A program made the translations under genes and the position numbers. The notes under the pieces were generated by a model that had not been told where the DNA came from, searched no databases, and was given only the letters and a program-made list of their open reading frames with translations. Shown one piece after another: positions 18,457 through 38,376 of a stretch of 44,707 nucleotides of DNA (positions are counted from its first letter, which is position 1; the number at the start of each line of letters is the position of its first letter). This DNA comes from Aurantimonas coralicida DSM 14790 (GTDB lineage: Bacteria; Pseudomonadota; Alphaproteobacteria; Rhizobiales; Rhizobiaceae), in contig NZ_ATXK01000015.1 in the NCBI RefSeq assembly GCF_000421645.1, forward strand, positions 1-44,707, written 5' to 3'.

Positions 18457-18457
18457 T

Positions 18458-19025: not shown

Positions 19026-19061
19026 CGCAATGAACCGAGAATCGCGGTCAGGCCGATTGTA

Positions 19062-21053: not shown

Positions 21054-21188
21054 ACATCCTCTCATAACAGCAATTCATTGTGAAATACCGAAAATTCGGC
21101 GAGCTATATGTGATTGGTATCGTATATCTATGTAAATCGTGCAGAATCTGGTTAATATTATTATTTGATTATATGAAAGGAATGTAAA

Positions 21189-21419
21189 TTGTTGAGGATT
21201 GGAACTCTTGGGGTTATGGCGATAGCTGTAGTATATGCCATGATCGCGTTTTTTGGAGCAATGGGTCTGGGTTACTTGGCTCTAATGATCGCTGGAATGT
21301 CAATTTCCATAGGAGACGGGTATTTAAATTTTGTTTACGCAATATTGTTTATGGGTTCGGCAGTAATCGCGATAATCGCCGGAAAAGGCTACCTCGATTC
21401 AAGAGATCGTAACGAATGA
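21189..21419 (+). CDS. small two-span membrane protein in AT-rich DNA
   Basis: 76 aa from a TTG at 21189, with AAGGA eight bases upstream. Two or three hydrophobic segments (IAVVYAMIAFFGAMGLGYLA, then FVYAILFMGSAVIAIIAGKG) and a charged C-terminus. Its base composition and that of the flanking 21054-21480 stretch are clearly more AT-rich than the rest of the window, which points to recent transfer from a different host. Function unknown. Confidence 0.5.
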   Translation: MLRIGTLGVMAIAVVYAMIAFFGAMGLGYLALMIAGMSISIGDGYLNFVYAILFMGSAVIAIIAGKGYLDSRDRNE

Positions 21420-21857
21420 GTCTAATAATTTCTGCGGAGTTCGAGTAATAATTCCCGAATTTTCTTAGGATGTCTATTCGTCCACTGGCGGTCAGAAGAT
21501 TGAGTTTGGCCACAATGCGAGAAAATATCAGTAAGCAGTAATCAGCGATCTGCTGACGAGCAGGATCGTGTCCGCCGCGAGGAGGGGAAGGCTGTCGAGT
21601 TGACCCGGCAAGCGGAATGGCCCGCGGCTTACATCCGGAAGGAGGCGGTGACGAGCCTCGGATACGAGAAGTGGCTGTCGACGTACCTTTTGGAACACCG
21701 GGCCACACGCCGGAAGAACTCGCCCGGCGTTCCGACCACTCCTCAGGTCGTGCTCGAGACGCACTGCGGGACGCGGTCGCACTGCGGAAGGACATGAACA
21801 GACCGGGCACGAGGCGCGGGGGGTAGCAGACTGACGGGCCGGCGCGCGCCGACCGCC
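21420..21857. other. stretch without a supported gene
   Basis: The first 110 bases continue the AT-rich patch. From about 21540 GC rises again. A plus-strand frame at 21617-21826 ends in a plausible helical stretch (PEELARRSDHSSGRARDALR) but has no good start signal; it may be a gene tail. A change of composition near 21540 marks a probable junction. Confidence 0.3.
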
Positions 21858-22190
21858 TCAAAAATGCCGCTGCCACAGGCGCCTCGCGAAGAACGCGCCG
21901 ACGCACAGTGCAGTCAGCATCCCGGTCGCCACAACAGCGGCCGCCTTCGCGCCCGGCACCTCCGCAAGCTGCCTCCGGTAGGTCGGAGAGCTGGCGAGAT
22001 GGCCATCTCGCCCACGACGCCGCCGAAACGCCGGCAGCCACCACAAGTCCACGAACAGGCCGAGTGGGAAGCTGGCCGTGATGAGCATCGGCCTCGCCAG
22101 AGGAAGGACCGCCGCAGGCCTCCGTACTCCGGCCTTCGCCGGGTTGCCAGCCACCTGCGCGGTGCCCTGAAACAGAAAGGGGCGTCCCAT
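21858..22190 (-). CDS. hypothetical small membrane protein
   Basis: 110 aa. Two hydrophobic segments (PMLITASFPLGLFVDLWWLP and AAAVVATGMLTALCVGAFFA) flank a basic loop. It starts 22 bp after the upstream unknown gene on the same strand, so the two are probably co-transcribed. No family recognised; genes of this kind occur in phage-derived or mobile regions. Confidence 0.45.
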   Translation of the reverse strand: MGRPFLFQGTAQVAGNPAKAGVRRPAAVLPLARPMLITASFPLGLFVDLWWLPAFRRRRGRDGHLASSPTYRRQLAEVPGAKAAAVVATGMLTALCVGAFFARRLWQRHF

Positions 22191-22212
22191 CTTTGAGCCG
22201 CCCCCGCAAGCG

Positions 22213-22815
22213 TCATTCCATCACCAGTCGAGGCCCACCCGCCTTCCGGTGCCGCACCCGATCAGTGAAAGACTCGATCGCCGACGGCTCCTTTCGTCCG
22301 GCCAACTCCTCGGCCGACGGCTCCGCTTCCCGACGCCGACACGGTTCGACACCCAGAGCGCCGCCGCCCATCCCCCGCGCCAGCCGCCCGCAGACGAGGC
22401 CGCCGGCTGCCGCAAGGCGATTGAGGTCGTGCGGCCGGAGCCGGAGGAGCCAGCTCACCTGGTCCGGCGACAGCGCCGACAGGTCGACCTGCCGGCGGTC
22501 CGTCGCCGAAGCGCGGGCGTAGGCGTGAACGATCGCGGACACCGGGTCCGTTCCATCGGGGCGTGGCTCGAGGACGGACGGAAGCAAGCCAGGGAGTTCG
22601 CGGGCGCGACCGCGCTTGGCGACCAGCGCCGCGATGTCCTTCGCGGTGTCCGGCGCCGGTGCGGGCTCGGGCGGCATGGGGAGGGAGCCGCCTCCACCGC
22701 CGAGCATCCGGCCGGGTATGGACGCCAGCCAGTCGAGTGCGGTCCAGCACCAGCGGCCGGCGGCGGCGAGGCTGGAAGCGGCGGCGCGGAGTGCGGCGGC
22801 GATGGCTGCGAGCAT
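22213..22815 (-). CDS. hypothetical protein, Ala-rich with N-terminal hydrophobic segment
   Basis: 200 aa. An Ala-rich N-terminus (AAIAAALRAAASSLAAAGRW) is followed by a proline-rich linker, then a helical domain with VDLSALSPDQVSWLLRLRPH and DLNRLAAAGGL, and a basic C-terminus. Base composition and codon pattern support coding. No family recognised. Together with the next gene it forms a minus-strand pair at the edge of the unknown-gene block. Confidence 0.5.
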   Translation of the reverse strand: MLAAIAAALRAAASSLAAAGRWCWTALDWLASIPGRMLGGGGGSLPMPPEPAPAPDTAKDIAALVAKRGRARELPGLLPSVLEPRPDGTDPVSAIVHAYARASATDRRQVDLSALSPDQVSWLLRLRPHDLNRLAAAGGLVCGRLARGMGGGALGVEPCRRREAEPSAEELAGRKEPSAIESFTDRVRHRKAGGPRLVME

Positions 22816-23093
22816 GCGGGTGTCCTCCCTCTAAGTGCACCGAAGGATGGTGGCTAAAATTGCAAGCGGCGAATTGAGCCTCTGCGAACCGCATTTCGAG
22901 GACGGGCTCGACGCGCCGCCCGACTCCTGGGATGTATCCCGTCCCACATCAATGGACGTCCGATGATCCCCTCCGTCACCCTCATCTCCAGCACTGCCGC
23001 CACCGTCGCGGCCCGCCGCATAGGCGGCGTGTGGCTGCCGAGCATGAGGGTGTCTGGCACCGACCCGAACGGGTGCCGCAACGGAGGATCGGC

Positions 23094-23786
23094 ATGTCCG
23101 ACAACGACAACAGCATCATCAGCCTCGACGACCTGAACGCGACCCAGAAGAATTTCGGGATCGTTTACTCCGACGGCGGAGTCCCGGCCGACTTCGCGAA
23201 GGTCGCAATCATCGCACTGACGGTCCGCGAGCAGTTCGCGACCAACCCGGCCCTGTTCGGCGGGGCGCCGGAGATCTTCCCCGACCCCGAGGACCCGACC
23301 CGCCAATGCTTCGTCCTTCGCGGCGCTGCGGTGTGGGTATGTACGCAGACCGACTTCGGTCCGCACCTACTCGACTTGGTCAAGTCGACGGGCGCCTGCT
23401 TCCGCCGCCGGGATGGGATGGCGTTCCTGATCTCCGCGCTGGCCCGAGACGCGGCATTCGCGGAGCGATTCAACGCCCGCATCGACCCGGTGGAACTCCT
23501 CGAGGAGAAGCTGGTCGGTTACCTCGAGCAGCACGGCTACCGTCTCGTCTTCGAGGTGCTCGAGAAGGCCGGCACGCCGGAGGAGCCCTGCACGATGATG
23601 ATGCACGAACTGCGCGAATTGATCCTCGAACACCACCTCGAAACCGTAGTGTGCACGCGCATGCCGATCTTGGGGCTCACCCGCCTCCAGCTCGGAGACG
23701 TGCTCGATGGTTGGATGGGGGCGCACGACAGCAGTGTTCAGCGCCTCCTTGGTGACATGCCGGAGTTCGGGGCGGAGCACGAATGA
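23094..23786 (+). CDS. hypothetical protein (230 aa)
   Basis: The ATG at 23094 has GGAGGA six bases upstream; the longer frame has no support. Soluble, acidic, alpha/beta-like: FGIVYSDGGVPADFAKVAII, then AAVWVCTQTDFGPHLLDLVK, then LEEKLVGYLEQHGYRLVFEV. No catalytic motif or family recognised. It overlaps the next gene by four bases. The pair stands alone on the plus strand between minus-strand unknowns and a phage lysis remnant. Confidence 0.65.
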   Translation: MSDNDNSIISLDDLNATQKNFGIVYSDGGVPADFAKVAIIALTVREQFATNPALFGGAPEIFPDPEDPTRQCFVLRGAAVWVCTQTDFGPHLLDLVKSTGACFRRRDGMAFLISALARDAAFAERFNARIDPVELLEEKLVGYLEQHGYRLVFEVLEKAGTPEEPCTMMMHELRELILEHHLETVVCTRMPILGLTRLQLGDVLDGWMGAHDSSVQRLLGDMPEFGAEHE

Positions 23787-24148
23787 TGGCCGAGGTCGTG
23801 AAGCTGAACCCCAAGCTGCGCGCCGAGGGGAACGCGCGGACCAGCGGAGGTGCCGAGGTGCGCGACTTCCCCGACCGCGAGCGCGAGGTAGAGAACGAGC
23901 GGCTCGACTTGCTGGCAGACTGGCTCGCGGAGAACGAGGACTGGCTCTTCGAGTTGGTCCTCGAGCGCTCGGACGAGCCGTTCCGGGACCACGACCACTT
24001 GTCCGAATGGGTCCAGCTCAACTGGGAAGGATCCGAAACCTTCAGCGGCGCGCCCCGCGAAGGCCTCCGGTGGCAGGCGGCGAACGACTTGCTCTTCCAC
24101 TGCATGGAAGGCGAGGAGTATGACCTCGAGGCTCTCCGACCCGAATAG
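23783..24148 (+). CDS. hypothetical acidic protein (121 aa)
   Basis: ATG overlaps the stop of the preceding gene (ATGA). Highly charged and acidic: REREVENERLDLLADWLAEN, then EDWLFELVLERSDEPFRDHD. Such acidic small proteins occur as immunity, antitoxin or anti-defence proteins, but nothing specific supports any of these here. Probably functions with the 230-aa partner. Confidence 0.6.
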   Translation: MMAEVVKLNPKLRAEGNARTSGGAEVRDFPDREREVENERLDLLADWLAENEDWLFELVLERSDEPFRDHDHLSEWVQLNWEGSETFSGAPREGLRWQAANDLLFHCMEGEEYDLEALRPE

Positions 24149-24211
24149 GGTCGCTCGACGCCAAGACGATCACGACAAAGGCCCCGGCACCACTGCCGAG
24201 GCCTCTTCGTT

Positions 24212-24397
24212 TCAGGCCCGCCACCCGCAGCGCACGATACCGAACCTGTTGTGCTCCAGCACCTGCCGCACATGGTCGTCCGCCGTCGGCCGGATCGCCT
24301 GCCACCCGTCGCAGCCGGACGGGCTACCCGTCGTCGCGCACCCAGCGAGGCAGCTCGTCGCGAGCGGCGCGATTATCGAGACGGTCAACTTGTTCAT
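24212..24397 (-). CDS. small lipoprotein, phage Rz1-like
   Basis: 61 aa from the ATG at 24397, with AAAGGA nine bases upstream. Signal and lipobox (CLAGC), then SGCDGWQAIRPTADDHVRQV and FGIVRCGWRA. The CDGW-IRPT start and CGW end are typical of small lipoproteins next to lysis genes in alphaproteobacterial phages (Rz1-like spanin position). The preceding Rz-like frame is broken, so this is probably a prophage leftover. Confidence 0.6.
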   Translation of the reverse strand: MNKLTVSIIAPLATSCLAGCATTGSPSGCDGWQAIRPTADDHVRQVLEHNRFGIVRCGWRA

Positions 24398-24570
24398 CGA
24401 TCCGGTTCCTTTCACACAGCGCGTCGAGGAGGCTGGCGCTACCCGAGACTCCTCGGCTCGCCGCCCGGCGCCGTACACGCGGGCAAGGATGCCGAGGTCT
24501 ACCAGTGCGCCGGCCCCGGCGGCCGCGAGCCAGCGGCCGGCGGGGGCGCAACCAAGCGAGGGCGGCGGTC
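24398..24570 (-). pseudogene. Rz-like lysis gene remnant
   Basis: From an ATG at 24570 the frame gives MTAALAWL, but the membrane-anchor reading (GRWLAAAGAGALVDLGILAR, then VYGAGRRAEESR) lies in another frame and runs without a stop into the lipoprotein frame. This is what a frameshifted, shortened Rz-type spanin would look like. The identification depends on position and pattern only. Confidence 0.4.
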
Positions 24571-24590
24571 ATGCGGCGACGCCTTCGTAA

Positions 24591-24779
24591 GCCCACAACA
24601 TCGCCGACCCCGATGACCTCGAGTACGAGATCGTCAGGGAATGCGTCGAGCGCGGCCGGGTTTGTATCGTCGCCGCTGACCTTCGGAAGAACGGCAAGTT
24701 CGCCGTCCTTGAAGGCGACTTCATGGACCACGTGAGCAAGAAGGTCGCGGAGATCGAAGAGGTGGACAAAAGGCATTGA
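24591..24779 (+). pseudogene. 3' fragment of an unknown gene
   Basis: An open stretch of 62 codons after a TAA at 24588, lacking a start codon: DPDDLEYEIVRECVERGRVC, then IVAADLRKNGKFAVLEGDFM, then DHVSKKVAEIEEVDKRH. Composition and periodicity look like real protein. An ATG at 24571 in another frame could be its original start, separated by a frameshift. Family not recognised. Confidence 0.35.
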
Positions 24780-25421
24780 GAGCGGCGTGCGTCGCTTCCG
24801 CCTTCGCTCCCTCCACTGTAGCTCATGGAGCCGCCCCATTCATCCTGGCCGCCGGCTGTAGCAAAGGGCACGGGTTGAACGAACTCATCGCCGCGCGGAA
24901 CGTGTCAGCATCCGGCGTGCCATGAAGCGCCATCCGTAAACTGCCGTCGCAACAGCATACCGGATGGGCGCGCTCGAGGATCACATCGAAGCCGTGCGCC
25001 GCCTCAACGGCCAGCATGCAAGACTCGAACGAGATGACGGATCCTTGGATCGTCGCCCAATCGGCGGGCACCGAACTGGGGTCACGGCACCGGACCAGTG
25101 CCGTTTCCGCTGTTCGGCGCGGCTCGAGAAAGCTCGAAAAGTAGCTGCTCTTGCGCAGCGGCGAGCGTGCACCCTTCACGGTGCCTACACTTCCATGTCG
25201 AGGTGGATTCGGCGGCGGCGTATGCACAAGACGCCACCTTCCTGATCAGCCGCAGGATAAATTCTCGGGATCATCTAAATCAAACACTTACAGGTGCGAT
25301 CCTTCCTAAAAAACCATCAAAATCAATGGCTTGAAGATTTTCCAGTTTGACATTGAAGCAGAGTCATGAGATATTGGAGTTGTCTCAATCAAGAGGCGGC
25401 GTACTTCGAGGATACTGAAGC
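24780..25421. other. stretch with only weak coding potential
   Basis: Apart from the doubtful minus-strand frame at 24823-25227, nothing here looks like a gene. The last 170 bases (25250-25420) are relatively AT-rich and precede the small gene at 25422, so its promoter is probably there. Confidence 0.3.
24823..25227 (-). CDS. doubtful hypothetical protein
   Basis: 134-codon frame. The central and C-terminal parts (WATIQGSVISFESCMLAVEA, then AHGFDVILERAHPVCCCDGS, then LRMALHGTPDADTFRAAMSS) look like protein, but no start has a good ribosome-binding site and the N-terminus is basic and irregular. It may be a gene with a lost 5' end. Confidence 0.3.
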   Translation of the reverse strand: MHTPPPNPPRHGSVGTVKGARSPLRKSSYFSSFLEPRRTAETALVRCRDPSSVPADWATIQGSVISFESCMLAVEAAHGFDVILERAHPVCCCDGSLRMALHGTPDADTFRAAMSSFNPCPLLQPAARMNGAAP

Positions 25422-25718
25422 ATGGCAGTTCGATCTAAGGCGGTTAATACCGCTGAATCAAAAGTAGTTCGCGAAAATCCAGCCGCAGAATTCCGCAAAG
25501 CGGTGAAAGCAGCGGGCGCGACCTATGAAATCAACCGCGACCGAAGCAGCTATTCGGACGCAATGAGCATCAGCTTTGCGGATGGTCGAACGCTCCACCT
25601 TCGACACATCCCAGCGGAGTGGTCCGATCACATCGACACGTTAGAGGCGTTCATCGCCGACCCGAGCTCGCGTCGCTTCATCGACTGTAAGGACGGTTCA
25701 TTCGACGTCTGCGGATGA
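25422..25718 (+). CDS. hypothetical protein (98 aa)
   Basis: ATG at 25422 with GAGGATACTGAAGC upstream, a good ribosome-binding site. Charged, soluble protein: VRENPAAEFRKAVKAAGATY, then SISFADGRTLHLRHIPAEWS, then EAFIADPSSRRFIDC. No family recognised. It stands alone, with no nearby partner on the same strand for 340 bp. Confidence 0.6.
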   Translation: MAVRSKAVNTAESKVVRENPAAEFRKAVKAAGATYEINRDRSSYSDAMSISFADGRTLHLRHIPAEWSDHIDTLEAFIADPSSRRFIDCKDGSFDVCG

Positions 25719-25797
25719 GCCTCGCGCCAACGGAGCTGACCGAACATGAGCAGGTCTAGGGCTCAATACCGGAGGTCCCGCAGTGATGCCGGGGCCT

Positions 25798-25938
25798 CTA
25801 TGCTACAAGATCGGCATCAATAGACGGCGGTGCCAAGTCTATAGCGTTCGAGCCCTTGGCTGAAGAAGCCTCGAATGTGGTCGCCACGTCGGCTGCCGAC
25901 GCCGGATGGTCCACCAGCCATCGCGCTTTCTTGGTCAT
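25798..25938 (-). CDS. possible 46-aa protein
   Basis: ATG at 25938 preceded by CAGGAATC about nine bases upstream. The frame (TKKARWLVDHPASAADVATT, then FEASSAKGSNAIDLAPPSID) is soluble and unrecognised. It sits in the 350-bp gap between 25718 and 26067. Support is weak. Confidence 0.3.
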   Translation of the reverse strand: MTKKARWLVDHPASAADVATTFEASSAKGSNAIDLAPPSIDADLVA

Positions 25939-26066
25939 CGGTGAGATTCCTGGATGCAGGGCTCCAACGCAGGATGACGGAGACAAGCACGAGCGCGTGC
26001 GGACGAGACGTGGGATCGGCACTGTTGGTCAACGCCTGAAGCGCCGAACGAACGAGGGGGCAAACC

Positions 26067-26207
26067 ATGACCGCCACCGACCGCTACAGCGCCCTCCGCC
26101 GCCGTCTGCGCATGACGCAGCCGGAGATCGCCGTCGACCGCTTGGCGGCCCGGCTGCGCGGGCGCGCGCTGACTGACCTCGCGGAATTTGCAGGACTGAT
26201 TCAATGA
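26067..26207 (+). CDS. small basic protein (46 aa), HTH-like
   Basis: ATG at 26067 follows GAGGGGGC seven bases upstream. TDRYSALRRRLRMTQPEIAV resembles the first helices of a short helix-turn-helix (R-x-x-L-x-M-T-Q-x-E), followed by DRLAARLRGRALTDLAEFAG. The stop overlaps the next gene's ATG by four bases. A Cro/CI-like fragment is possible, but the protein is short for one. Confidence 0.5.
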   Translation: MTATDRYSALRRRLRMTQPEIAVDRLAARLRGRALTDLAEFAGLIQ

Positions 26208-26575
26208 CCCGGACCGACGCCGAACTGGAGGCCATCATAATGGCGAGGACCGCCGACATCTTATGCCAACAGCTCTCCGTCGTCGACGGCGTGTGCCGTG
26301 TCGAGATCTACGACCCGCCGGGCGCGGACGACGAGAACTGGGCCGTATCGCTCACAGCGTCGCCCGAGCGCGTCGAGGGGGAGTTCTATAGCAAGGGCGG
26401 CGCGCGCGGGACCGTCGTCTCGAACCCCGTCGACGCCCACGCCGCACGGGACGACTACGAACGGTTCCTGCGCGATCCCGCGTCCTGGTCGCGAGAGCTG
26501 TGGGCCGAGTTCGCCAAGTTCGACGACGTGCGGTGGGTCATCTTCGGCGAGACGTTGAAAATGTTGAGGGCATGA
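26204..26575 (+). CDS. hypothetical protein (123 aa)
   Basis: ATG overlaps the preceding 46-aa gene. Soluble alpha/beta protein: AELEAIIMARTADILCQQLS, then CRVEIYDPPGADDENWAVSL, then YERFLRDPASWSRELWAEFA. No motif or family recognised. The coupled pair has good coding character and is the second two-gene unit of unknown function in this block. Confidence 0.55.
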   Translation: MTRTDAELEAIIMARTADILCQQLSVVDGVCRVEIYDPPGADDENWAVSLTASPERVEGEFYSKGGARGTVVSNPVDAHAARDDYERFLRDPASWSRELWAEFAKFDDVRWVIFGETLKMLRA

Positions 26576-26716
26576 TAGCCGACGCTCGCATGGGTCAGCG
26601 ACCCTACACCTCAAAGTCTCTGGCTATTGTGGATCCGGTCCATCCTGAAAGTTCGAGGATGCCCGCCCTCCGTTTTGTCGATCGCGTGCAGGTATCGCCG
26701 GGTGTCGGCCTCTCGA

Positions 26717-27067
26717 GTGCGGCCTGAGCACCGCGGCGGGGACTGGAAGGTCTACGGTGCATTTGAGCACCGCCTCCCCGAGGGACTCGACCCGAAGAAC
26801 GGGCGGCATGTCGAGGAGGTCCGGATCTCCCTGTCCGCCCCCGTGGACGACATACGGGCCGCCGAAGAAGCGGTCGCCAAGCGGCTCGCCGAACAGATGC
26901 CTTTCACGGAATACCCTGAATGGATTGCCAGCCCGCGCCGGCGACGGCAGGACCCAGAAGCACTGTCACCGCACCAAGGCGCAATCAGAACAAGGCGATG
27001 GCCGCACCGCAGAAGAGAAGGAGCGCGACGGGGTCGATGCTTGCCAGGCTCGGGACGTCGAGCGTGA
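26717..27067 (+). CDS. possible gene fragment
   Basis: From a GTG at 26717 about 65 residues read like protein (RPEHRGGDWKVYGAFEHRLP, then EGLDPKNGRHVEEVRISLSA, then AAEEAVAKRLAEQMPFTEYP). The remainder is Arg-rich and overlaps the chrA remnant on the other strand, so the true 3' end is probably lost near 26930. No ribosome-binding site seen. Confidence 0.3.
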   Translation: MRPEHRGGDWKVYGAFEHRLPEGLDPKNGRHVEEVRISLSAPVDDIRAAEEAVAKRLAEQMPFTEYPEWIASPRRRRQDPEALSPHQGAIRTRRWPHRRREGARRGRCLPGSGRRA

Positions 27068-27145
27068 GCGGTCCGACCCGAACCTGGTAGACCTCCCGGA
27101 ACAGCACGTGCAGGCCGAACCAGAGGGCCAGATTGAGGATCTGTG
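26985..27145 (-). pseudogene. chrA: chrA (chromate transporter) 3' fragment
   Basis: About 53 codons on the minus strand read SQILNLALWFGLHVLFREV, then RVGPLTLDVPSLASIDPVAL, then LLFCGAAIALF and a stop. LNLALWF-LHVLF and the SLASIDPVAL span are typical of the last membrane spans of ChrA transporters. The frame has no start, the rest of the gene is missing, and the stop comes before the usual final helix. A small remnant of a chromate-resistance gene, 25 bp downstream of qatD. Confidence 0.65.
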
Positions 27146-27170
27146 AACTACGACACAAGCCCTCGTTCTC

Positions 27171-27926
27171 TCAGCTCACGAGGGCGGCGAGGTTCGTGCG
27201 GATCCGTTTTGCCATCTCGCCCTCGGGAATGCCGAATGACGACGCCAGCATTGAGGTGGCCCTGCCGACATCGGCTGGCCGGGCAGCGTCGTCTCCCTCT
27301 CGCGCGAACGGACCGTCTGTCTCCGTCAGGATCCGGTCGATCGGGACCACGGTCCTGACGATGGCCGACATCCGGTCGGACTGCATCATCGCCGCGTTGA
27401 TCGAGAACCAGCATCCAAGGTCGACGGCTCGCCGCGCTTCGGCCTTGCTGCCGGAGAACCAGTGCAGGACGACGTTCGACCGTCCCCGGGGTAGGTGCGC
27501 CTCCACCATGTCCAGAACCAGCGTGGCCGCGCGGACACTGTGGACCGAGAGCACCTTGTCACCGGCAGACGCGCACGCCACTAGGACGCGTCGGAACACC
27601 TCGCGCTGGCGCTCCAGGGAACGGAAGTGGGCAGGTCCGGCGTCGAGGCCGACCTCTCCGACGTACCGTGTCTCGGGAAGCAGCGCCTCGAACAGGGCGA
27701 TCTCGTCCCCGTGGTCCGCGACAAGCTGCGGGTGCAGGCCGAGTGCCGCCCTGACGTGTCGGGTCGCCGAAGCGAGATTGTGGTTGCGCCGCCAAGCGCG
27801 AGGCGTCGTCGTCACGGCGAGGGTGTAGAGCCCCGCCGCGTCGCACTCGCGCACGAGCTCCTCGAAGTCCGGGAAGAGGTCGAGGTGGCAGTGGAAGTCG
27901 ACCAGGGCCTCAGCCATCGCGACCAT
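27171..27926 (-). CDS. qatD: QatD, TatD-like nuclease of the Qat anti-phage system
   Basis: 251 aa from the ATG at 27926 (27917 is an alternative); both overlap the qatC end. The longer frame to 28346 is antisense-like nonsense. DFHCHLDLFPDFEELVRECD gives the TatD metal-binding HxH, followed by ALGLHPQLV, YVGEVGLDAG, LSVHSVRAA, VLHWFSGS and the ETDGPF Asp. This matches QatD, the TatD-type hydrolase encoded after QatC. It appears intact, but its partners are broken, so a complete defence function is unlikely. Confidence 0.85.
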   Translation of the reverse strand: MVAMAEALVDFHCHLDLFPDFEELVRECDAAGLYTLAVTTTPRAWRRNHNLASATRHVRAALGLHPQLVADHGDEIALFEALLPETRYVGEVGLDAGPAHFRSLERQREVFRRVLVACASAGDKVLSVHSVRAATLVLDMVEAHLPRGRSNVVLHWFSGSKAEARRAVDLGCWFSINAAMMQSDRMSAIVRTVVPIDRILTETDGPFAREGDDAARPADVGRATSMLASSFGIPEGEMAKRIRTNLAALVS

Positions 27927-29295
27927 CAAGCGGCCTCGCCTCGACGTCTTCGAGGACCTCGGCGACTTCCGCCATGCCGCGTCGGTAGACGCCGACGAGG
28001 TCTGGCACGATGGCGGCGTCCTCCAGCAGCGGGCCCGGCTTGTAGACCCATGTCTCGGGCAGTTCCGGCCTCTCCCGAAGGCGGGCGATCGCGTATTGGA
28101 AACCTCGCACCTGCCGTCCCTTAGCTTTGGTCGTATCGAGGACCTCGGAGGTGAGGTCGTCGAGTGCATACCCGGTTTCGTCCCTGCCGTCCCACGGCGT
28201 CCGCAGGAGCGAGGCGCGACGGATAATGCAGGGGAGGCAGTAGCCGCAATGGGCGTGGTCGCCCGCATACCAGCGCCTCGTCGACGGGTGCGCGCAGGAC
28301 AGCGACCAGCGGCGCCAGCGCCTCGAGGGCGGCCGGGTTCGCGCATCCGTCGACCATCTCACCCTTGGTGCGGTCCCAGTAGGGGTTCACGACGCGGCCC
28401 CGGATGCCGACGGTCGCGAGCAGCTCGTTCCAGCGGTGGATGTAGAACGGATGCGTCGTCCGCGTGCTGTTGCTTCCCACCCGCGTGACGTCGAGCGGCA
28501 CGTTCAGGAAGATCAGGCCGTTCTCCGGAACCCGGAGGTCGAACGGTCGGGCGAACGCCGACCCGGCGAACGCCGCGGCCGCGAAAAACAGGAAGGACCG
28601 CCCGCGGGTGGAGTTCTCGCCTCCGATTCCGGCGACGAGGTTGCTCGGGATGGTCATGGCCAGGCGGAGCCGGACCGGACGCGCGTGATCTGCCTGACGG
28701 GCCGCGAGCTCGCGGAACAGCCTGCCTTGGGGCGCGCTCACGCCGCCTTCGCCGCCGTGGCTGACGAAAAGGGGAAACCCCCCCTCGTGAAGTTCGTCGA
28801 CTGCCCCGATGAGACTGTCGAGACCGCCGGAGAACAGGGAGACCCCCGTGAACGGATGTCGTGTCCGCGATCTCGGCTGACGCGACAGAGGCGGGCGGCC
28901 GGAGCGAGGCAGGGGCGGAAGCGGACCGCCCACAGGTCGCCGGTCAGGAACCGGAGCATGCGCTCTAGGGGGGCGGTCGCCCGATCCCAGACGGCGACGT
29001 CGGAGACGGGAACGACGATGCTGATCTCACGCATCCACCCGTCCTGTGAGGCCTGCACCCGGTTCAGCCGCGTGTCCGCGGCATGGACGTGGGCCGCCAA
29101 CGTGATCAGGTCGATGCCGACCGCAGTGGGAGTCAGGTGCCAGCCAGCGAGGTGCTTCAGGGCGCGGTCCACACCGAAACGCAGGCTTCCCGCGGCGTCG
29201 AGGAGGTCGAGAGTGGTCGCGACCGTGTCCACGGCGCGCGGCGGCCGGAAGGCGTCGGCGGGCCCCAAGCGTCCGAAGATGATATGCTTGGTCAT
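27910..29295 (-). pseudogene. qatC: QatC (QueC-like), broken by two compensating frameshifts
   Basis: The N-terminal domain opens at ATG 29295 (KHIIFGRLGPADAF, then GIDLITLAAHVHAADTRLNR, then SQDGWMREISIVVPV, LTGDLW). Near 28870-28930 the reading must shift to reach the PP-loop SLFSGGLDSLIGAVDEL and NPYWDRTKGEM. Near 28290-28310 it shifts back to the original frame for HCGYCLPCIIRRAS (zinc Cys motif) and the C-terminal TGYALDDLTSEVLDTTKAKG. All parts of QatC are present in order, so the gene has a -1-type and a +1-type shift. Sequencing error is possible but two are needed. QatC is related to 7-cyano-7-deazaguanine synthase. Confidence 0.8.
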
Positions 29296-29561
29296 GCGTC
29301 GCCTCTCTCTGGACCGTCGGCGTAGCCTTCGAGTACGCCCATGGCCATTGTATAGATCCGTTCGATCGCCGAACGGACGCCGGCACCGGACATCAGTCGG
29401 CCGACCCCCGCCATCGCGGACCTCACCGCGCCGTCGACGAAGTCCCGGACGTCGGCCTCGGCCGACGCCGCGTCCTCGATGCTGTCGGGAAGGAGCACGA
29501 TCCCATTGGCCACCGCGTTCTTCAGTCGGTTGTCGATCGTCCCGACGATGAACCGCTCGAT
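29292..29561 (-). pseudogene. qatB: QatB C-terminal fragment
   Basis: The open frame ends at 29292, overlapping the qatC start by four bases. It can be read back to a TAA at 29562-29564: ERFIVGTIDNRLKNAVANGI, then VLLPDSIEDAASAEADVRDF, then VDGAVRSAMAGVGRLMSGAG. Position and length fit the C-terminal end of QatB, which precedes QatC. The rest of qatB and all of qatA are missing; 19 bp beyond the TAA a broken PCu(A)C gene begins on the other strand. The identity comes mainly from context. Confidence 0.6.
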
Positions 29562-29579
29562 TTATGCGCGGTATCCCAA

Positions 29580-29913
29580 ATGAGGTTGATGCATATCGCT
29601 ACTGCGGCGGCCATCAGCCTCGGCTTTGTCGGCCTCGCCGCGGCGCATGAGTTCAAAGCTGGAGGTCTCACGATCGACCATCCGTCATCCCGCCCGACAC
29701 TGCCAACGGCGAGGGTCGGGCGGGGTACTCGTCCGTCAGCAGCAGCGATGGAAGTTGAGCAGATCGGCTACCGTCGCGGGCAGGTTCGCGAGCCACGAGT
29801 AGCCGGTGGAGGACGGCGTCGCACGGATGCGTCCTGTCAAGGACGAAATCCTCATCAGGCCAGATGCGACGGTCACGCTCGATCCCGGGAGAGGCGCCTA
29901 CCCGTGGCGGTGA
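29580..29913 (+). pseudogene. PCu(A)C copper chaperone pseudogene
   Basis: ATG at 29580. Residues 1-45 match PCu(A)C: signal peptide, HEFKAGGLTIDHPSSRPTLP. After TAR the frame becomes Arg-rich. In other frames GYSSVSSSDGS (the GYL-V-N-GS block) and then VEDGVARMRPVKDEILIRPD, ATVTLDPGRGAY appear in family order, ending with a TGA at 29911. At least two frameshifts are needed. Compare the intact gene at 6246-6731. It adjoins the truncated qatB and marks the junction between the defence remnant and the mer block. Confidence 0.75.
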
Positions 29914-29953
29914 AACGCTGCGGGGTGAACGCAGCAGGACGAACTTAGCGCAG

Positions 29954-30370
29954 TCATGAGCCTTCGAGCGTTTCCAGAACCGCGCAGTCCGGCACATCAC
30001 CTCCCGAACATCGGGCCGCCGCCGCCGCAAGCACTATCTCAATCCGTCTGAGGTCTGCAATCTTCGTCCGCACGTTCGAAAGGTGGCGTTCGGTACGCTC
30101 CTTGATCTCCGCACAAGTCTGGTCGCCGCCGTCAACGAGGTCGAGAAGCCCCCGAATCTCCTCGATCGAGAACCCAAGCTCTCTGGCGCGCAGGATGAAT
30201 TTCAGCCGCGAGACATGATCCGAGCCGTAGACCCGGTAGCCTGCCGCCGTGCGCGGCGGATCGGGCATCATACCGATCTTCTCATAATAGCGGACGGTTT
30301 CGAGATTGCAGCCGGTTCGTCGCGCCAGCTCAGCGCGCCGCAGACCCCTCCCGGACGCGTGATCGCTCAT
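29954..30370 (-). CDS. merR: MerR-family mercury regulator
   Basis: 138 aa from the ATG at 30370; the longer frame is antisense to merT. Helix-turn-helix: RRAELARRTGCNLETVRYYE, KIGMMPDPPRTAAGYRVYG. The dimer helix carries Cys residues in QTCAEIKERTERHL and AARCSGGDVPDCAVLETLE, at the positions of the three Hg(II) cysteines of MerR. It is divergent from merT with the operator between them. It would repress without and activate with Hg(II). Confidence 0.88.
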   Translation of the reverse strand: MSDHASGRGLRRAELARRTGCNLETVRYYEKIGMMPDPPRTAAGYRVYGSDHVSRLKFILRARELGFSIEEIRGLLDLVDGGDQTCAEIKERTERHLSNVRTKIADLRRIEIVLAAAAARCSGGDVPDCAVLETLEGS

Positions 30371-30384
30371 CGCGAAAAACCCTC

Positions 30385-30415
30385 TTGAGCCTGTAGTTGC
30401 TACAGACCTTATAGA
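30385..30415 (+). promoter_or_regulatory. mer operator/promoter
   Basis: TTGAGC (30385-30390) and TATAGA (30410-30415) are separated by 19 bases. The spacer has a perfect 6-bp dyad CTGTAG-TTG-CTACAG. This is a classical MerR-type promoter directed at merT (ATG 30444), 15 bases upstream of the divergent merR start. Confidence 0.85.
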
Positions 30416-30443
30416 AGATCGAGCGGAGGATCGAAAGGCGAAG

Positions 30444-30839
30444 ATGATGAGCATCACGAACCGGGAACGTTGGCATCCCGCGGAGGAAGTCGGAAGCCGC
30501 CGGAAGGACTGGTTCGCGGCCGGAGGTGTCACTGGGGCGGTCTTCGCGTCAAGCTGCTGCATTGGGCCGCTGGCCCTTCTCTCGCTCGGCGTCTCGGGCG
30601 CATGGATCGGCAATCTGACTGCGCTCGAGCCCCTGAAGCCCTTGTTCGCAGCTATCGCGCTCCTCTTCATCGGCCTCGGGTTCCGGCAGGTCTACTTCCA
30701 GCCGAACACGATCTGCGAGCCCGGCTCCGTCTGCGCCCGGTCGCGATCAGCACTTCTTACCAGGACAGCTCTCTGGTCCGCCACTGTCCTAGTGCTCGTC
30801 GCGATCACGATCGACTGGTGGGCGCCGCTTCTTTACTGA
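30444..30839 (+). CDS. merT: mercuric ion transporter MerT
   Basis: 131 aa with three membrane spans. The first span contains the Cys pair that takes Hg(II): TGAVFASSCCIGPLALLSLG. The loop between spans 2 and 3 has FQPNTICEPGSVCARS, the second Cys pair. This is the MerT layout for importing Hg(II) from MerP to the cytoplasmic reductase. An ATG three bases later is an alternative start. merP follows 15 bp downstream. Confidence 0.92.
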   Translation: MMSITNRERWHPAEEVGSRRKDWFAAGGVTGAVFASSCCIGPLALLSLGVSGAWIGNLTALEPLKPLFAAIALLFIGLGFRQVYFQPNTICEPGSVCARSRSALLTRTALWSATVLVLVAITIDWWAPLLY

Positions 30840-30854
30840 GCAAGGAGGCTTTTC

Positions 30855-31187
30855 ATGAAATCCTATTTCGCTTCCACCGCCGCAGCCGCAGCCGTCCTAT
30901 TGGGGGCGCCGGCGATCCTGGCGATTCAGAGTTTGCCAGCCGCCGGTCAGACGGCATCCGCGCAAGCCGAACTCAAGACCGTGGTGTTCGACGTGGAGAA
31001 CATGACCTGCGCGACCTGTCCGATAACTGTCCGTCTGGCCATGGAGGCCGTCGAGGGCGTGCGCTCCGTCAAGATCGATTTCGAGGCGAAAACCGCCACC
31101 GTCGTCTTCGACCCCGCGATTTCCAATACCGCGGGGATCCGCGCCGCCTCGACGAACGCCGGGTATCCGGCAGCGGCGCAAAGCTGA
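30855..31187 (+). CDS. merP: periplasmic mercury-binding protein MerP
   Basis: 110 aa with an AAGGAGG site upstream. A signal peptide and a longer than usual linker are followed by an HMA domain with ENMTCATCPITVRLAMEAVE (CxxC Hg site) and IDFEAKTATVVFDP. MerP scavenges Hg(II) in the periplasm and hands it to MerT. The N-terminal extension (about 35 residues before the domain) is a little longer than in Tn501-type MerP. Confidence 0.92.
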   Translation: MKSYFASTAAAAAVLLGAPAILAIQSLPAAGQTASAQAELKTVVFDVENMTCATCPITVRLAMEAVEGVRSVKIDFEAKTATVVFDPAISNTAGIRAASTNAGYPAAAQS

Positions 31188-31193
31188 CGTGCG

Positions 31194-31450
31194 ATGAAGG
31201 ATCGCACCATCACCAGGTCCGGCATCGTTGGCGCCGTGGTCGCCGCGATCTGCTGCTTCACCCCAATCCTCGTCCTTGGCGTTGGCGCAGTCGGCCTGTC
31301 GGCCTGTCGGCCTGGCTCGGTTGGCTCGACTATGTGCTCTTGCCGGTGCTTTTCGTCGCGCTGGGGCTGATCGCCTACGGTCTTTGGCTTCAGCGCCGGG
31401 CGGCAGATTGCTGCACGCCCCCACTCGATCGAATACCGAAGGACGATGAC
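31194..31450 (+). pseudogene. merF: merF broken by an 8-bp tandem duplication
   Basis: ATG at 31194: KDRTITRSGIVGAVVAAICC, then FTPILVLGVGAVGLSA, the MerF start with its CC pair in span 1. At 31291-31314 the 8-mer TCGGCCTG is present three times in tandem; with two copies the frame would continue as WLGWLDYVLLPVLFVALGLI, AYGLWLQRRAADCCTP, the second MerF span and Cys pair. With three copies the frame ends at 31370 after 58 aa. The normal MerF frame has no stop before merA and is in phase with it, so the two-copy form would encode a MerF-MerA fusion. Confidence 0.85.
31291..31314 (+). repeat. 8-bp tandem repeat x3 inside merF
   Basis: Three perfect head-to-tail copies of TCGGCCTG, followed by GCTCGG. 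Two copies restore the MerF frame; three copies (as here) shift it. Non-triplet perfect repeats inside a coding region are typical slippage sites. Confidence 0.9.
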
Positions 31451-32875
31451 ATGGATGCATGCTGCTCAATGCCCCGCCAGGGCAGCTACGATCTCGCGGT
31501 GGTCGGCGCGGGTTCGGCCGGATTTTCCGCCGCCATCACCGCCGCGGACCTCGGCGCGCGGGTTGCCCTCATCGGCCACGGAACGATCGGCGGCACCTGC
31601 GTGAATGTCGGCTGCGTGCCGTCCAAGACAATGATCCGAGCGGCGGAAGCGCTGCACGGCGCCAGTGCTGCTGAACGGTTCCTGGGGCTCACGTGCGGAG
31701 TTCGGGTAACCGACTGGCCGTCGCTCATCGCAGCGAAGGACGATCTCGTTGCAAGCTTGCGGCAGAAAAAGTACGCGGACCTGCTGCCGGACTACGAAGC
31801 CGTGGACTACATCGAAGGCCAGGTGCGCTTCGAGGGCGACGCCCTCCTGGTCGATGGTGCGCCGCTCAGTGCGGGAAAAGTCATCATCGCAACCGGGGCA
31901 TCGCCGGTGATCCCGGACATCGCCGGCATCAGGGACGTGCCGGTCCTGACCAGCACAACGGCGCTGGAACTGACCGAGCAGCCTGCCTCGCTCCTCGTCA
32001 TCGGCGGCGGTTACATAGGCTGCGAACTCGCGCAGATGTTCGCGCGTCTGGGAACTGCGGTGACGCTCGTGACGCGGTCCCGTCTCCTGCCCGAAGCCGA
32101 GCCCGAGGTTTCGGAGGCGCTGACGGCCTATCTTAGGGACGAGGGCGTAACGGTCCGGACCGGAGTCTTCTACCGTCGCATCGCGCGTCACGACGAAGGG
32201 GCCGTGCTCACCGTGCTCTCCGAAGGCAGGGAAGTGACACTGAGCGCCGCCCGCGTTCTGGCGACCACAGGCCGGCGTCCCAACGTGGAAATCCTGAACC
32301 TTACGGATGCCGGCGTCGAGCTCGACTGGCGCGGCGCGGTCGTCGTCGACAACCGCATGCGGACCACCCGGCCCGGCGTCTATGCCGCGGGCGACGTCAC
32401 CGGGCGCGACCAGTTCGTCTACATGGCGGCCTACGGCGCGAAACTTGCGGCGAAGAATGCGCTGAACGGCGACAGCCTGGTCTACGACAATGGAGCCATG
32501 CCTTGGGTCGTGTTCACGGATCCTCAGGTGGCGGGCGTAGGGCTGACCGAGGCCGGTGCACGCGCCGCGGGATGTGACCCAAAGACCTCGGTCGTCCCGC
32601 TTGATCAGGTGCCGCGGGCACTGGTCGCCAGAGATACGCGCGGGCTGATCAAGCTCGTGGCCGACGCCAGGACCGACCGGCTGCTCGGTGGCCAGATCCT
32701 CGCGCCCGAGGGCGCCGACAGCATCCAGACACTTTCGATGGCGTTGCAGGTCGGCATGACGACGCGGGCGCTCGGTGAAACCATCTTCCCATATCTCACC
32801 ACAGTGGAGGGCCTGAAGCTCGCCGCACAGGGATTCGGCAAGGATGTGGCTAAGCTATCCTGTTGCGCCGGTTGA
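31451..32875 (+). CDS. merA: mercuric reductase MerA (no N-terminal HMA domain)
   Basis: 474 aa from the ATG at 31451. The FAD site VVGAGSAGFSAAITAADLG and the redox motif GGTCVNVGCVPSK (Cys50, Cys55) are present, as are the NAD(P) site VIGGGYIGCELAQMFARLG, TTGRRPNVE, YAAGDVTG, and the C-terminal LSCCAG vicinal Cys pair that delivers Hg(II). A CC pair near residue 4 (MDACCSM) replaces the usual NmerA domain. It reduces Hg(II) to Hg(0) in the cytoplasm. The upstream merF frame is open into this gene. Confidence 0.95.
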   Translation: MDACCSMPRQGSYDLAVVGAGSAGFSAAITAADLGARVALIGHGTIGGTCVNVGCVPSKTMIRAAEALHGASAAERFLGLTCGVRVTDWPSLIAAKDDLVASLRQKKYADLLPDYEAVDYIEGQVRFEGDALLVDGAPLSAGKVIIATGASPVIPDIAGIRDVPVLTSTTALELTEQPASLLVIGGGYIGCELAQMFARLGTAVTLVTRSRLLPEAEPEVSEALTAYLRDEGVTVRTGVFYRRIARHDEGAVLTVLSEGREVTLSAARVLATTGRRPNVEILNLTDAGVELDWRGAVVVDNRMRTTRPGVYAAGDVTGRDQFVYMAAYGAKLAAKNALNGDSLVYDNGAMPWVVFTDPQVAGVGLTEAGARAAGCDPKTSVVPLDQVPRALVARDTRGLIKLVADARTDRLLGGQILAPEGADSIQTLSMALQVGMTTRALGETIFPYLTTVEGLKLAAQGFGKDVAKLSCCAG

Positions 32876-32912
32876 AACATCGCGCCGCCCAAGACGTTTG
32901 CGACGCAGCGAA

Positions 32913-33326
32913 ATGCAATGCCTCATGACCGCCCAGCACGCGCCCTGGGCGGTCTCGCCCGACGATACGGAACAGAGGGAGCAGCGTGTCCGACCGGACC
33001 CGCCCTTCCGGGCCGAGATATTCGCCGACTACGCAGGTCTCGATGTCGACGAACCGGAGACGATAGCCGCAGGCATGGCCCTCCACTACACCTCCAGCGT
33101 TGGCAGGGGACCGGTCTACTGCGTGATGCGCCGGACGGCCGGGATGGACTCGCTCGGAGCGGTTGCCGCCGGCGGCGTGAGAATGTCCGTCATCCTGCAG
33201 GGGTCAATGACCGACGCTCTCGGTCTCAGCCCGCCGGAAAGGGGGCGCGAGCTCCGGGATTGGCGACGGCCTCGCATGGACTTTCGCCGCGGCGGTGGCA
33301 TCGGCCATTGTCAATTTCCGCTCTGA
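32913..33326 (+). CDS. hypothetical protein after merA
   Basis: 137 aa from the ATG at 32913 (32925 is an alternative). The first 90 residues look like protein: DPPFRAEIFADYAGLDVDEP, then ETIAAGMALHYTSSVGRGPV, then YCVMRRTAGMDSLGAVAAGG. The C-terminus is Arg-rich and less convincing, and the better-looking reading may continue in another frame (NFRSDEESAEQIVPEIPGEW around 33300-33370). It may be a frameshifted gene. It is not MerB as far as I can see. Position suggests a mer-linked accessory gene. Confidence 0.45.
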   Translation: MQCLMTAQHAPWAVSPDDTEQREQRVRPDPPFRAEIFADYAGLDVDEPETIAAGMALHYTSSVGRGPVYCVMRRTAGMDSLGAVAAGGVRMSVILQGSMTDALGLSPPERGRELRDWRRPRMDFRRGGGIGHCQFPL

Positions 33327-33579
33327 CGAGGAGTCGGCCGAGCAAATCGTTCCCGAGATTCCGGGAGAATGGCGGCTGCGCCGGGCCGGTTCAGACCGAC
33401 GTCCCGAAGCCGGAGAACTCTGGGACGCTCATCGAGACGGCGATCGGATGACGGATAGTCGCCCAGGAATGCCGCTCCCGACGCTGGGCGGAGCCGACGT
33501 CCTCTGCGACATCGGCGCTCCGTTCGGCTGGACAGCCTCGCGGCGGCGCGTCCGCCAACTTCAAGGAAAGGAATGAACC

Positions 33580-34926
33580 ATGGCTATCAGCTACGATCTT
33601 CTGATTATCGGCACCGGGACGGCAGCGATGGTTGCCGCGATGCGTGTGCGCGCGGCGGGGTGGAGCGTGGCGGTGGCGGATTTCCGCTCCTTCGGCGGCA
33701 CCTGTGCCTTGAGAGGCTGCGACCCCAAGAAGATGATGATCGGCGGCACCGATGCGGCCGACCACGCCTGGCGCATGCAGGGCCATGGCGTGGAAGGAGA
33801 TACCCATCTCGAGTGGCCAGGTCTCCTCGCCTTCAAGCGCAGCTTCACCGTTCCGATTCCGGACAAGCACGAGCAGCGTTACGAAGAGAAGGGCATCGAC
33901 ACCTTTCACGGACGGGCGCGGTTTACCGGACCGAACACGCTCGACATCGGAGGCACGCCGGTCGAAGCGCGACACGTCCTGATCGCTGCCGGTGCGGAGC
34001 CGCTGCGGCTCGGAATCCCGGGCGAGGAGCACCTCATCGACAACGAGGGTTTTCTGGAGCTCGAGAGGCTGCCCAAGCGGATCGTGCTCGTCGGCGGCGG
34101 CTACATCGCTGCGGAGTTCTCCCACATCGCCGCCCGCGCCGGCGCCAAGGTGACGATCTTCCAGCATGGCGAGCGCATGCTGAAGCACTTCGATCCGGAC
34201 CTCGTCGGCTGGCTGATGGACAAGTTTCGCGACCTTGGCATCGACGTTCGGACAGATGCAGAGGTGACCGCGATCGAGAAATCCGGAGAAGGCTATCGAG
34301 TTTCGGCGATGGACCTTGACGGCGAACTGACCGTAGAGGCCGATCTCGTCGTGCACGCCGCCGGGCGCAAGCCGGCTCTCACCGACCTCGATCTCGCCGC
34401 CGCCGGGATCAAGCACGAGAACGGGCGGCTCGTCCTGAACGCGCACCTTCAAAGCGTATCCAATCCGACGGTCTACGCCGCCGGCGACGCCGCTCAGATG
34501 GGACCGCCGCTCACCCCTGTTTCGAGCCATGACGCCAAGGTCGCTGCCGCCAATCTGCTCGAAGGCAACAAGCAGAGGCCAAACTACGACGGCGTGCCGA
34601 GCGTCGCCTTCACGATTCCGCCGATCGCCGCTGTGGGGCTCACCGAGGCCGAAGCGCGGGATAAGGGCATGAAGTTCGGGATGAAGAGCGCCCGCGCTGA
34701 GGGGTGGTTCACGGCGCGTCAGGCGGCGGAGAAGATCTACGGCTTCAAGGTGCTGGTGGACAAAGAGACCGACCTCGTCCTCGGGGCGCACTTGGTCGGT
34801 CCGCATGCCGATGAGGTCATCAATATCTTCGCACTTGCGATCCGCCACGGGATCACGGCCGAGAAGCTCAAGTCGACCATGTTCGCCTATCCCAGCGGGG
34901 CGTCCGATATTGGATCCATGCTATAG
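33580..34926 (+). CDS. FAD-dependent pyridine nucleotide-disulfide oxidoreductase
   Basis: 448 aa. FAD site LIIGTGTAAMVAAMRVRAAG, redox motif FGGTCALRGCDPKK (Cys42, Cys47), NAD(P) site VLVGGGYIAAEFSHIAARAG, and YAAGDAAQMGPPLTPVSSHD. The C-terminal dimer domain ends with YPSGASDIGSML. It resembles glutathione/mercuric reductase-like enzymes but lacks the C-terminal Cys pair of MerA and the His-Glu pair typical of glutathione reductase (a Tyr-Pro-Ser-Gly stretch instead). Probably a thiol or metal-related reductase; substrate unknown. It follows the mer genes on the same strand. Confidence 0.85.
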   Translation: MAISYDLLIIGTGTAAMVAAMRVRAAGWSVAVADFRSFGGTCALRGCDPKKMMIGGTDAADHAWRMQGHGVEGDTHLEWPGLLAFKRSFTVPIPDKHEQRYEEKGIDTFHGRARFTGPNTLDIGGTPVEARHVLIAAGAEPLRLGIPGEEHLIDNEGFLELERLPKRIVLVGGGYIAAEFSHIAARAGAKVTIFQHGERMLKHFDPDLVGWLMDKFRDLGIDVRTDAEVTAIEKSGEGYRVSAMDLDGELTVEADLVVHAAGRKPALTDLDLAAAGIKHENGRLVLNAHLQSVSNPTVYAAGDAAQMGPPLTPVSSHDAKVAAANLLEGNKQRPNYDGVPSVAFTIPPIAAVGLTEAEARDKGMKFGMKSARAEGWFTARQAAEKIYGFKVLVDKETDLVLGAHLVGPHADEVINIFALAIRHGITAEKLKSTMFAYPSGASDIGSML

Positions 34927-34970
34927 ACGTCGAGGGGGCGGGGCTGTCGCGGCCTATCCGGCGGGAAAGT

Positions 34971-35654
34971 TCACCCTAAGGTATCAACACTCCCGCTAAG
35001 CGTCTCGACGCCGGAATTGGCGTCCTTCAGCGCCGCAATGTAATTACGCGGGAAGAGCAAGTGGTTGACCGTTTCCATGCCCATAAAGTCAGCGATCTTG
35101 TTCGTGAAAGTCGAGCAGTTATAGGCGACGGCGTGCCAGAGCGGGCTGTTGCCCTGAAGCTGCCGGATCCGGCCAAGGATACGCTGATACTCTTCCGGTG
35201 TGAGTGCAATGGTCATCTCGTTCTGAAGATATCTAATCTCGGTGTCGCCGTCCGAGAAGCCGGTCTCGGATGGGACCGGGGCGATATGGCCCATGGTATA
35301 GACAGCGTTGCCGCCTGCGGGGTGAAGACCGGCGATCTCGGTCATGTTCGAGATGAGGACTCCCCCATTGTCGTAGGGGACGTTACCGCGCGAATCGAGT
35401 TCGCCGAAGGCGACGAACGAATGGCCGTAGCTTTCAGCATTACGGGCACGGAAAGAGATGAAATAGGGCTTCGCCAACTGGCCAACGGCGCTTTGCCCCG
35501 ACCAGGGTGTGAACCGAACCTGCTGATCGGTCCCGGCGAAGCTCGTGGCAGGAGCACCGACCGTCATGTTCGAATTCGAAGAAGTTGATGAGCAACCGGC
35601 AAAGGCCGCGATCAAGATTGCGATCGCAGTGAATTTCGCAAGAAACTTTGCCAT
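34971..35654 (-). CDS. lipoprotein with putative Cys/His papain-like fold
   Basis: 227 aa from the ATG at 35654; a TTG at 35669 adds five residues. Signal and lipobox LIAAFAGCSS. The mature part has ESYGHSFVAFGELDSRGN and, later, WHAVAYNCSTFTNKIADFMG: a His in the first and a Cys in the second, in the order seen in some permuted papain-like (NlpC/DUF4105-type) proteins. Role unknown; an envelope peptidase or amidase is possible. It is convergent with the reductase gene. Confidence 0.6.
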   Translation of the reverse strand: MAKFLAKFTAIAILIAAFAGCSSTSSNSNMTVGAPATSFAGTDQQVRFTPWSGQSAVGQLAKPYFISFRARNAESYGHSFVAFGELDSRGNVPYDNGGVLISNMTEIAGLHPAGGNAVYTMGHIAPVPSETGFSDGDTEIRYLQNEMTIALTPEEYQRILGRIRQLQGNSPLWHAVAYNCSTFTNKIADFMGMETVNHLLFPRNYIAALKDANSGVETLSGSVDTLG

Positions 35655-36108
35655 GTCGGTCGATCCCAAACGCGTCGTTGTTCAGCCACTCCGGCCTGAG
35701 CATTCACGACTTGCTGTGAAAATATGGGTGAGGAGCAAACCCCTAGTGGCTGACTAAGGCCTAAGTAGGGTGGCGTCTAGGAAGCGGAGCGTGAGAGGAC
35801 GACTTTCTTGAGTTTTCCGGTCCGTATTCTGGGGATGAGATTGAGAAGGCCCGCTTCCTTTGGCATCTCCGCCGCGCGCTCGCGCATCCCGAAGTGTCTT
35901 GGCCGGCAGCTCGAGGGTAGCGTGACGAGCGAGAACGCTGATCCGTTTGCATCCAAGAGCAAGGTGACGCCTTTCTTGAGTGGACGGTGCGCCCATCGGA
36001 AAAATTTTCCGATTTCATTGCCGCCATGCCTTCCGGGTACGTCGCATCAAACCAGGATACCGGACTCGAGTATGGACGTCTCTCTGAGATCATGATATCG
36101 ATACCTCA
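35655..36108. other. intergenic stretch before the copper block
   Basis: 450 bp without a supported gene. A minus-strand frame at 35777-35962 ends in RIRTGKLKKVVLSRS, vaguely like the C-terminus of an AMP-binding acyl-CoA synthetase, but it is too short to name. The promoter of the copper block should lie in 35900-36108; no CueR- or CopR-like box was recognised. Confidence 0.35.
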
Positions 36109-36498
36109 ATGACGTTGCACCGATCCCATGCTTGGATGCCAGCTCGGCTGCTGACCGCTTTTGCGGTTGTGCTGAGCATGCTGTTTGCGTCAGTCGGATC
36201 GGTTGGGGCGGATATCCCCACAATGTCCACGCAGCCTCCTGCCTTGTCGATGTCCGCTCAATTGGATGTCAGTGGGATGAGGGAGCATGTGCGCGATGGC
36301 GACCATGCTCCGTCCAAGGCTCATGACCACAAGGCTGTCGGCGGAAGTGACTGTGCGACGCACTGCGTTACGGCCGTCCCGCAGGCCGTCGGGCCGACCG
36401 ACGCCGTGCCGGTCAGCCGCAGTCTGTCCTACCCGCTCCTCTCGGCGGATCTGACCGGACAGTCCGGACCCACCACCGAGCGTCCTCCTCGAATCTGA
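36109..36498 (+). CDS. small exported His/Cys/Met protein
   Basis: 129 aa with signal peptide (about residues 1-34). The mature part is rich in His, Met and Asp: MREHVRDGDHAPSKAHDHKA, then SDCATHCVTAVPQ, and ends TTERPPRI. It is the third member of the small exported set with the E-[RQ]-P-P tail (see 4451-4786 and 11341-11685). It opens the copper block, just ahead of TolC and multicopper oxidase, which supports a copper-linked role. No family is claimed. Confidence 0.6.
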   Translation: MTLHRSHAWMPARLLTAFAVVLSMLFASVGSVGADIPTMSTQPPALSMSAQLDVSGMREHVRDGDHAPSKAHDHKAVGGSDCATHCVTAVPQAVGPTDAVPVSRSLSYPLLSADLTGQSGPTTERPPRI

Positions 36499-36662
36499 TC
36501 GTCCAGGGCTTTTCTCAGCCTTATTGCGTCTTCCGGCCATTCCTTGGTCGCAAGAAGCGTGGACGTCAGGAATTCGCCCACGGCGAAGCCTGATCCTCTT
36601 CCTCCATGACCGGTTCCGCGAGGCGCATCTCGCGGCGAACGGTATGGCGTTCAGGTTCAACA

Positions 36663-38359: not shown

Positions 38360-38376
38360 TCGAAAGGATCCGAACG

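Follow-up and report, generated by a model that had tools for sequence, protein, structure and literature searches.

Qat gene pieces and their flanks

The window analysed here, a stretch of 44,707 nucleotides that makes up an entire contig of the Aurantimonas coralicida DSM 14790 genome, carries pieces of a Qat operon on its minus strand. Furthest downstream is qatD (27171..27917), an open frame of 248 aa that family profiles place among the TatD-family nucleases, matching PADLOC model PDLC02215 over positions 3-248 of 250 (2.5e-113, 375.6 bits). Ahead of it, qatC occupies 27910-29295 in three pieces: a first (28888..29295), a middle one that contains SGGLDS (28310..28885), and a third (27910..28308), covering positions 1-136 (9.5e-43), 138-328 (2.3e-77), and 329-452 (1.2e-43) of the 453-position model PDLC02214, and hence 1-452 when combined. 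The first and third pieces share one reading frame and the middle piece lies in another. qatB, whose N-terminal part is missing, is represented by a tail (29292..29561) comprising the final ~85 profile positions (206-290 of 294 in PDLC02213, 4.7e-11; 105-189 of 191 in PDLC02211, 2.5e-12). The order B-C-D on one strand has been kept, as has the junction of qatC and qatD, where the third qatC piece, up to its TGA, and the start of qatD share 8 bases.

With the NCBIfam models, QatD scored 339.1 bits against a cut-off of 230, compared with 115.8 bits for the general TatD model on the same protein, and the fragments all fell below their whole-protein cut-offs (QatB piece, 37.4 vs. 100 bits; QatC pieces, 94.6, 234.6, and 122 vs. 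280 bits). A Pfam search (E up to 1) returned TatD_DNase in QatD and no match above cut-off for the QatB and QatC pieces. A sequence-only reading of this DNA had proposed a QatB tail, a frameshifted QatC of full span, and an open QatD in qatBCD order, with most of qatB missing; PADLOC and NCBIfam agree on this arrangement and assign the pieces to the Qat families rather than to unrelated ones. QatD also contains HCH, GEVGLD, SVH, LHWFSG, and TETDGP, which we take to be the metal-site motifs of TatD nucleases; HCH, GEVGLD, and TETDGP are identical in all 77 aligned QatD relatives, and SVH and LHWFSG are variable.

On the right, QatB similarity begins directly after a stop at 29562, and a remnant of a PCuAC-type copper chaperone gene starts at 29580 on the plus strand (29580..29909), bearing out the cut beside a broken copper chaperone gene that had been proposed at 29562-29580. 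This remnant, identified by comparison with an intact PCuAC paralogue at 6246-6731 (Pfam PCuAC), keeps its N-terminus and continues in another frame with a stop; on its own it had no Pfam or NCBIfam match. On the left lies the C-terminal remnant of a chrA chromate-transporter gene (26910..27140, minus strand), with one in-frame stop and likewise no Pfam match on its own, which aligns with residues 472-548 of a 549-residue Chromate_transp (Pfam) frame at another locus, L006 (77 aligned columns, 79% identical). In several genomes, DNA similar to 26900-27141 runs out at 27140 or 27141, and we read this as a second cut, at ~27140, at the opposite end of the qat block, so that its flanks are two wrecked metal genes. 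The window also encodes MerR, MerT, an HMA protein, a ZIP transporter, and a metal P-type ATPase, together with a MerF-plus-oxidoreductase frame and a second such oxidoreductase.

The qatABCD genes form an anti-phage system (Gao et al. 2020, cited in PMC13279940). According to the part of PMC13279940 available to us, QatB and QatC alone protect against lambda-vir, with the unstructured QatB N-terminus and its MGTS glycine motif and the catalytic residues of the QatC active site both being essential; QatA and QatD are dispensable against this phage, and their loss restores susceptibility to some phages only. The locus resembles the system described in that part of the paper in its B-C-D order, in the SGGLDS motif and C-terminal cysteine cluster of QatC, and in having a QatD of the TatD family, but differs in having no qatA, a QatB without its N-terminal 70%, and a QatC spread over two frames; among the features of a working Qat system, QatD is thus present, and QatA, the QatB N-terminus, and a single-frame QatC are absent.

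Searches of the A. coralicida genome, with one model each for QatA and QatB, returned no match to QatA (KAP-family NTPase, NF041923) that reached the cut-off, the best being 28.5 bits against 600 over positions 15-75, in keeping with the earlier claim that qatA is missing here; a working qatA was not found elsewhere in the genome either. No QatB match reached its cut-off, the sole one being the tail in this block, and QatC was matched only by the pieces described above. Since the QatB N-terminus and an unbroken QatC are both missing and the genome holds no other QatB or QatC match, Qat immunity is probably dead at this locus.

The same broken block in four genomes

The window is 99.94% identical to DNA of Aurantimonas manganoxydans SI85-9A1 (44,707 columns, one 18-base gap), and its positions 1-20000 and 24708-44707 are 100% identical (rounded) to sequences of Jiella sp. 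LLJ827 (two contigs) and the Fulvimarina MAG NAT173. Comparison with Jiella and Fulvimarina over 20174-34917 gave 4 and 6 base differences, and the 2,421-base qat block itself has none in A. manganoxydans, none in the Fulvimarina MAG, and one in Jiella. As a chromosomal control, a single 20-kb region of A. manganoxydans was 95% identical in A. coralicida and at most 76%, in patches, in Jiella and Fulvimarina, a large contrast with the DNA around the qat block.

This agreement bears on whether the breaks are real. Sequencing error can be rejected as their source, as the letters match in four assemblies. A broader alternative, in which the breaks arose in assembly or programmed frameshifting reads across them and a shortened QatBC still works, would account for the return of the QatC end to its starting frame, but besides the matching assemblies it has to contend with the stop at 28738, where the starting frame terminates ahead of the second frame change, and with a QatB that lacks its essential N-terminus, leaving it a negligible probability.

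Near-identity to A. manganoxydans (G006) begins, in Fulvimarina and Jiella, at a tRNA-Lys(CTT) gene (G006 1476324-1476399) and ends, in A. coralicida and Jiella, at G006 1579240; the left end was thus seen in one pair of genomes and the right end in the other. The last 45 bases of the tRNA are repeated at G006 1579196-1579240 (45/45 bases), giving an element of ~102.84 kb, of which the final 14.6 kb is 99.3% identical in Jiella. The right 45-bp repeat is exact in A. coralicida. Beside the right end is a 463-aa integrase-like protein that scored under the Pfam cut-offs for both Arm-DNA-bind_3 (24.6 vs. 27 bits) and Phage_integrase (20.3 vs. 27.1 bits) and aligns over its full length in A. coralicida (100%) and Jiella (98.5%). 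The qat block therefore rides on an integrative element of ~102.8 kb that sits in tRNA-Lys(CTT) and is bounded by a 45-bp repeat; what had been described as a metal island is itself this integrated element. Because the same lesions occur across genera on an element that has spread, the block was presumably broken before the spread, and the element would have spread without working Qat immunity.

Several other features of the element were recorded. The left tRNA-Lys repeat of Jiella matches the 45-base core exactly, and the right one (G060:C5, L127:5396) departs from it at 3 positions. Two stretches of ~1.4 kb in A. manganoxydans (G006 1479102-1480526 and 1493306-1494724), with 8- and 16-base overlaps at their joins, are absent from the Jiella and Fulvimarina copies and are possibly IS insertions. 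Outside the window, the element encodes a DarT-DarG pair (L019:17340-19057, equal to G006 1557339-1559056), both genes open (PADLOC 225.8 and 405.2 bits), with proteins 100% identical in A. coralicida and Jiella and frames open in the three copies where this part was seen; this is apparently an intact phage-defence toxin-antitoxin system. Within the window, two plus-strand frames at 22932-24148 show strong coding bias (third-position GC 0.82 and 0.89) and have no Pfam match, and the DNA flanking them (22211-22899 and 24071-24589) resembles sequence from the element's right part at 73-74%.

The sequence-only reading had suggested looking for an intact qatABCD at this place in close relatives, and none was found in the 60 genomes searched: at 26900-30000, 24 of the 60 (A. 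coralicida included) had some match, which extended beyond ~500 bases only in A. coralicida and A. manganoxydans. In a draw of 199 genomes of the family from a larger group, QatC exceeded the cut-off in 7, and the wreck was present in 3, namely A. coralicida, A. manganoxydans, and G223, which to judge by its coordinates is most likely the Jiella genome already counted. As alternative carriers, plasmids were rejected (2 of 72,556 records matched 25400-31500, at mer genes only; the best plasmid QatD was 62% identical among the matches listed, 15 of 99), as were viruses (one distant match, 29%).

Probable erosion of the operon

Taken together, the locus very probably began as a complete qatABCD operon that has since eroded, and it is now a passenger on a recently moved tRNA-Lys(CTT) element. 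In the order of events that we infer, a rearrangement inside a metal-resistance region would have removed qatA together with the first ~70% of qatB, and at the other side most of the chromate-transporter gene; qatC carries two further frame-breaking lesions, and the ~102.8-kb element bearing the fragment has moved between genomes of Aurantimonas (two), Jiella, and Fulvimarina. The proposal that a defence operon was sliced by island turnover thus stands as far as the operon is decapitated, frameshifted, and embedded in a metal island; a deletion fits both flanks, and the turnover itself is tied to the event order suggested above.

The sharp cuts in unrelated genes at both ends would also be expected if a ready-made 2.4-kb piece comprising the qatB tail, qatC, and qatD had been inserted between two metal genes without any decay in place. 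However, a repeat search of 26800-30100 revealed no convincing repeat or IS end at either junction among the families listed (direct, 20 of 31; inverted, 25 of 62), and within the window the missing front of chrA is not picked up again beyond the qat block, arguing against a clean insertion into this gene. We consider the arrival of a ready-made piece unlikely; a larger insert may instead have been trimmed by deletion on either side.

Comparison with related loci places the eroded operon against its usual state. From a contig scan, the best 80 of 408 QatD relatives were kept, 4 of which are cut by contig ends, leaving 76 with enough upstream sequence. Four open genes were present in 68 of these 76, which points to the intact operon as the normal state, in a survey that reached its loci through QatD and to which operons that have lost qatD are invisible. 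The 8 exceptions are the 3 copies of this wreck, L047, L065, L089, in which QatA and QatC are in pieces, and L030 and L033, which may be alignment artefacts. The closest QatD outside the element among the best 80 (67% identical) belongs to Mesorhizobium sophorae ICMP 19535 (L023), where all of QatA-D are PADLOC-matched and the same 8-base qatC/qatD overlap occurs; unlike at our locus, all four genes are open. Decapitated operons like ours occur in L065 (Burkholderiaceae MAG) and L047 (Bradyrhizobium sp. NAS80.1): their front part is gone, no qatA was found, and qatD is open. L065 (2776-4418) also keeps a QatB tail, starting at profile position 215 of 294 against 206 of 294 here and thus at nearly the same loss point, but its QatC is unbroken, whereas only the end of qatC, with the open qatD, is left in L047 (4717-6014). 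A frame upstream in L065 resembles a photolyase.

The frequent incompleteness of Qat genes has been published before: the part of a MAG survey available to us (PMC10924106) describes incomplete and solitary Gao_Qat genes in most MAGs, for which it proposes genetic erosion or other functions. The locus is like that material in its incomplete Gao_Qat genes and unlike it in that the latter is a survey, which in the part available to us does not deal with this locus; our literature search found no paper on this Qat wreck. The locus is most likely an ordinary gene wreck. The one thing that sets it apart is that a tRNA-Lys element of recent spread carries it about in an already broken state. It clearly illustrates how defence genes erode on a mobile element, with the same broken Qat block in several genera, and a reminder that finding a QatD or a QatC piece is not the same as finding a Qat system.

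QatD as a survivor

The open qatD raises the question of whether it was retained for a use of its own. The sequence-only reading had hinted at another use; in a fuller version of this idea, the protein would serve the host or the element as a solitary TatD-type nuclease, the other qat genes having decayed around it. Were this so, an element with an open DarTG pair would be spreading a lone QatD nuclease among alphaproteobacterial genera. In its favour, QatD is open with its motifs, and its frame is likewise open behind the decapitated operons L047 and L065 and indeed in 80 of 80 loci, although three of these are this wreck and all were found by QatD itself, which biases them toward openness. 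Solitary Gao_Qat genes also occur in MAGs, with non-defensive roles as one option in the available part of PMC10924106.

The open frame is nevertheless expected by chance: given two frame breaks over the 1,368 bases of qatC, a simple Poisson estimate puts the chance that the 747 bases of qatD escape any at ~0.34. In a near-invariant-column test, which has little power, 3 of 92 columns were broken in QatD and 4 of 123 in the QatC pieces, so that no extra constraint is visible on QatD, and by this measure QatD is no better conserved than QatC. These rates lie on the worse side of average yet within range (QatD, 0.033 vs. 0.013; QatC, 0.033 vs. 0.016), with 4 of 45 non-redundant QatDs (of 77) and 5 of 32 non-redundant QatCs (of 67) breaking near-invariant columns as badly or worse. 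As both proteins fall within the range of intact relatives, the wreck looks young; the decay of QatC, whose pieces keep their motifs, looks young or incomplete. A scan of 26800-30100 found no sigma-70-like promoter, a weak test given that 0.1 was expected in shuffles and that such scans miss many promoters, and the element copies are so alike that selection on QatD is not measurable. We therefore find no support for another use; retention of QatD as a lone nuclease seems quite improbable, and it probably has no function of its own here. Elsewhere in the A. coralicida genome, a second QatD-like protein (G000:C10:84813-85571) is TatD-type by similarity and 34% identical to this QatD.
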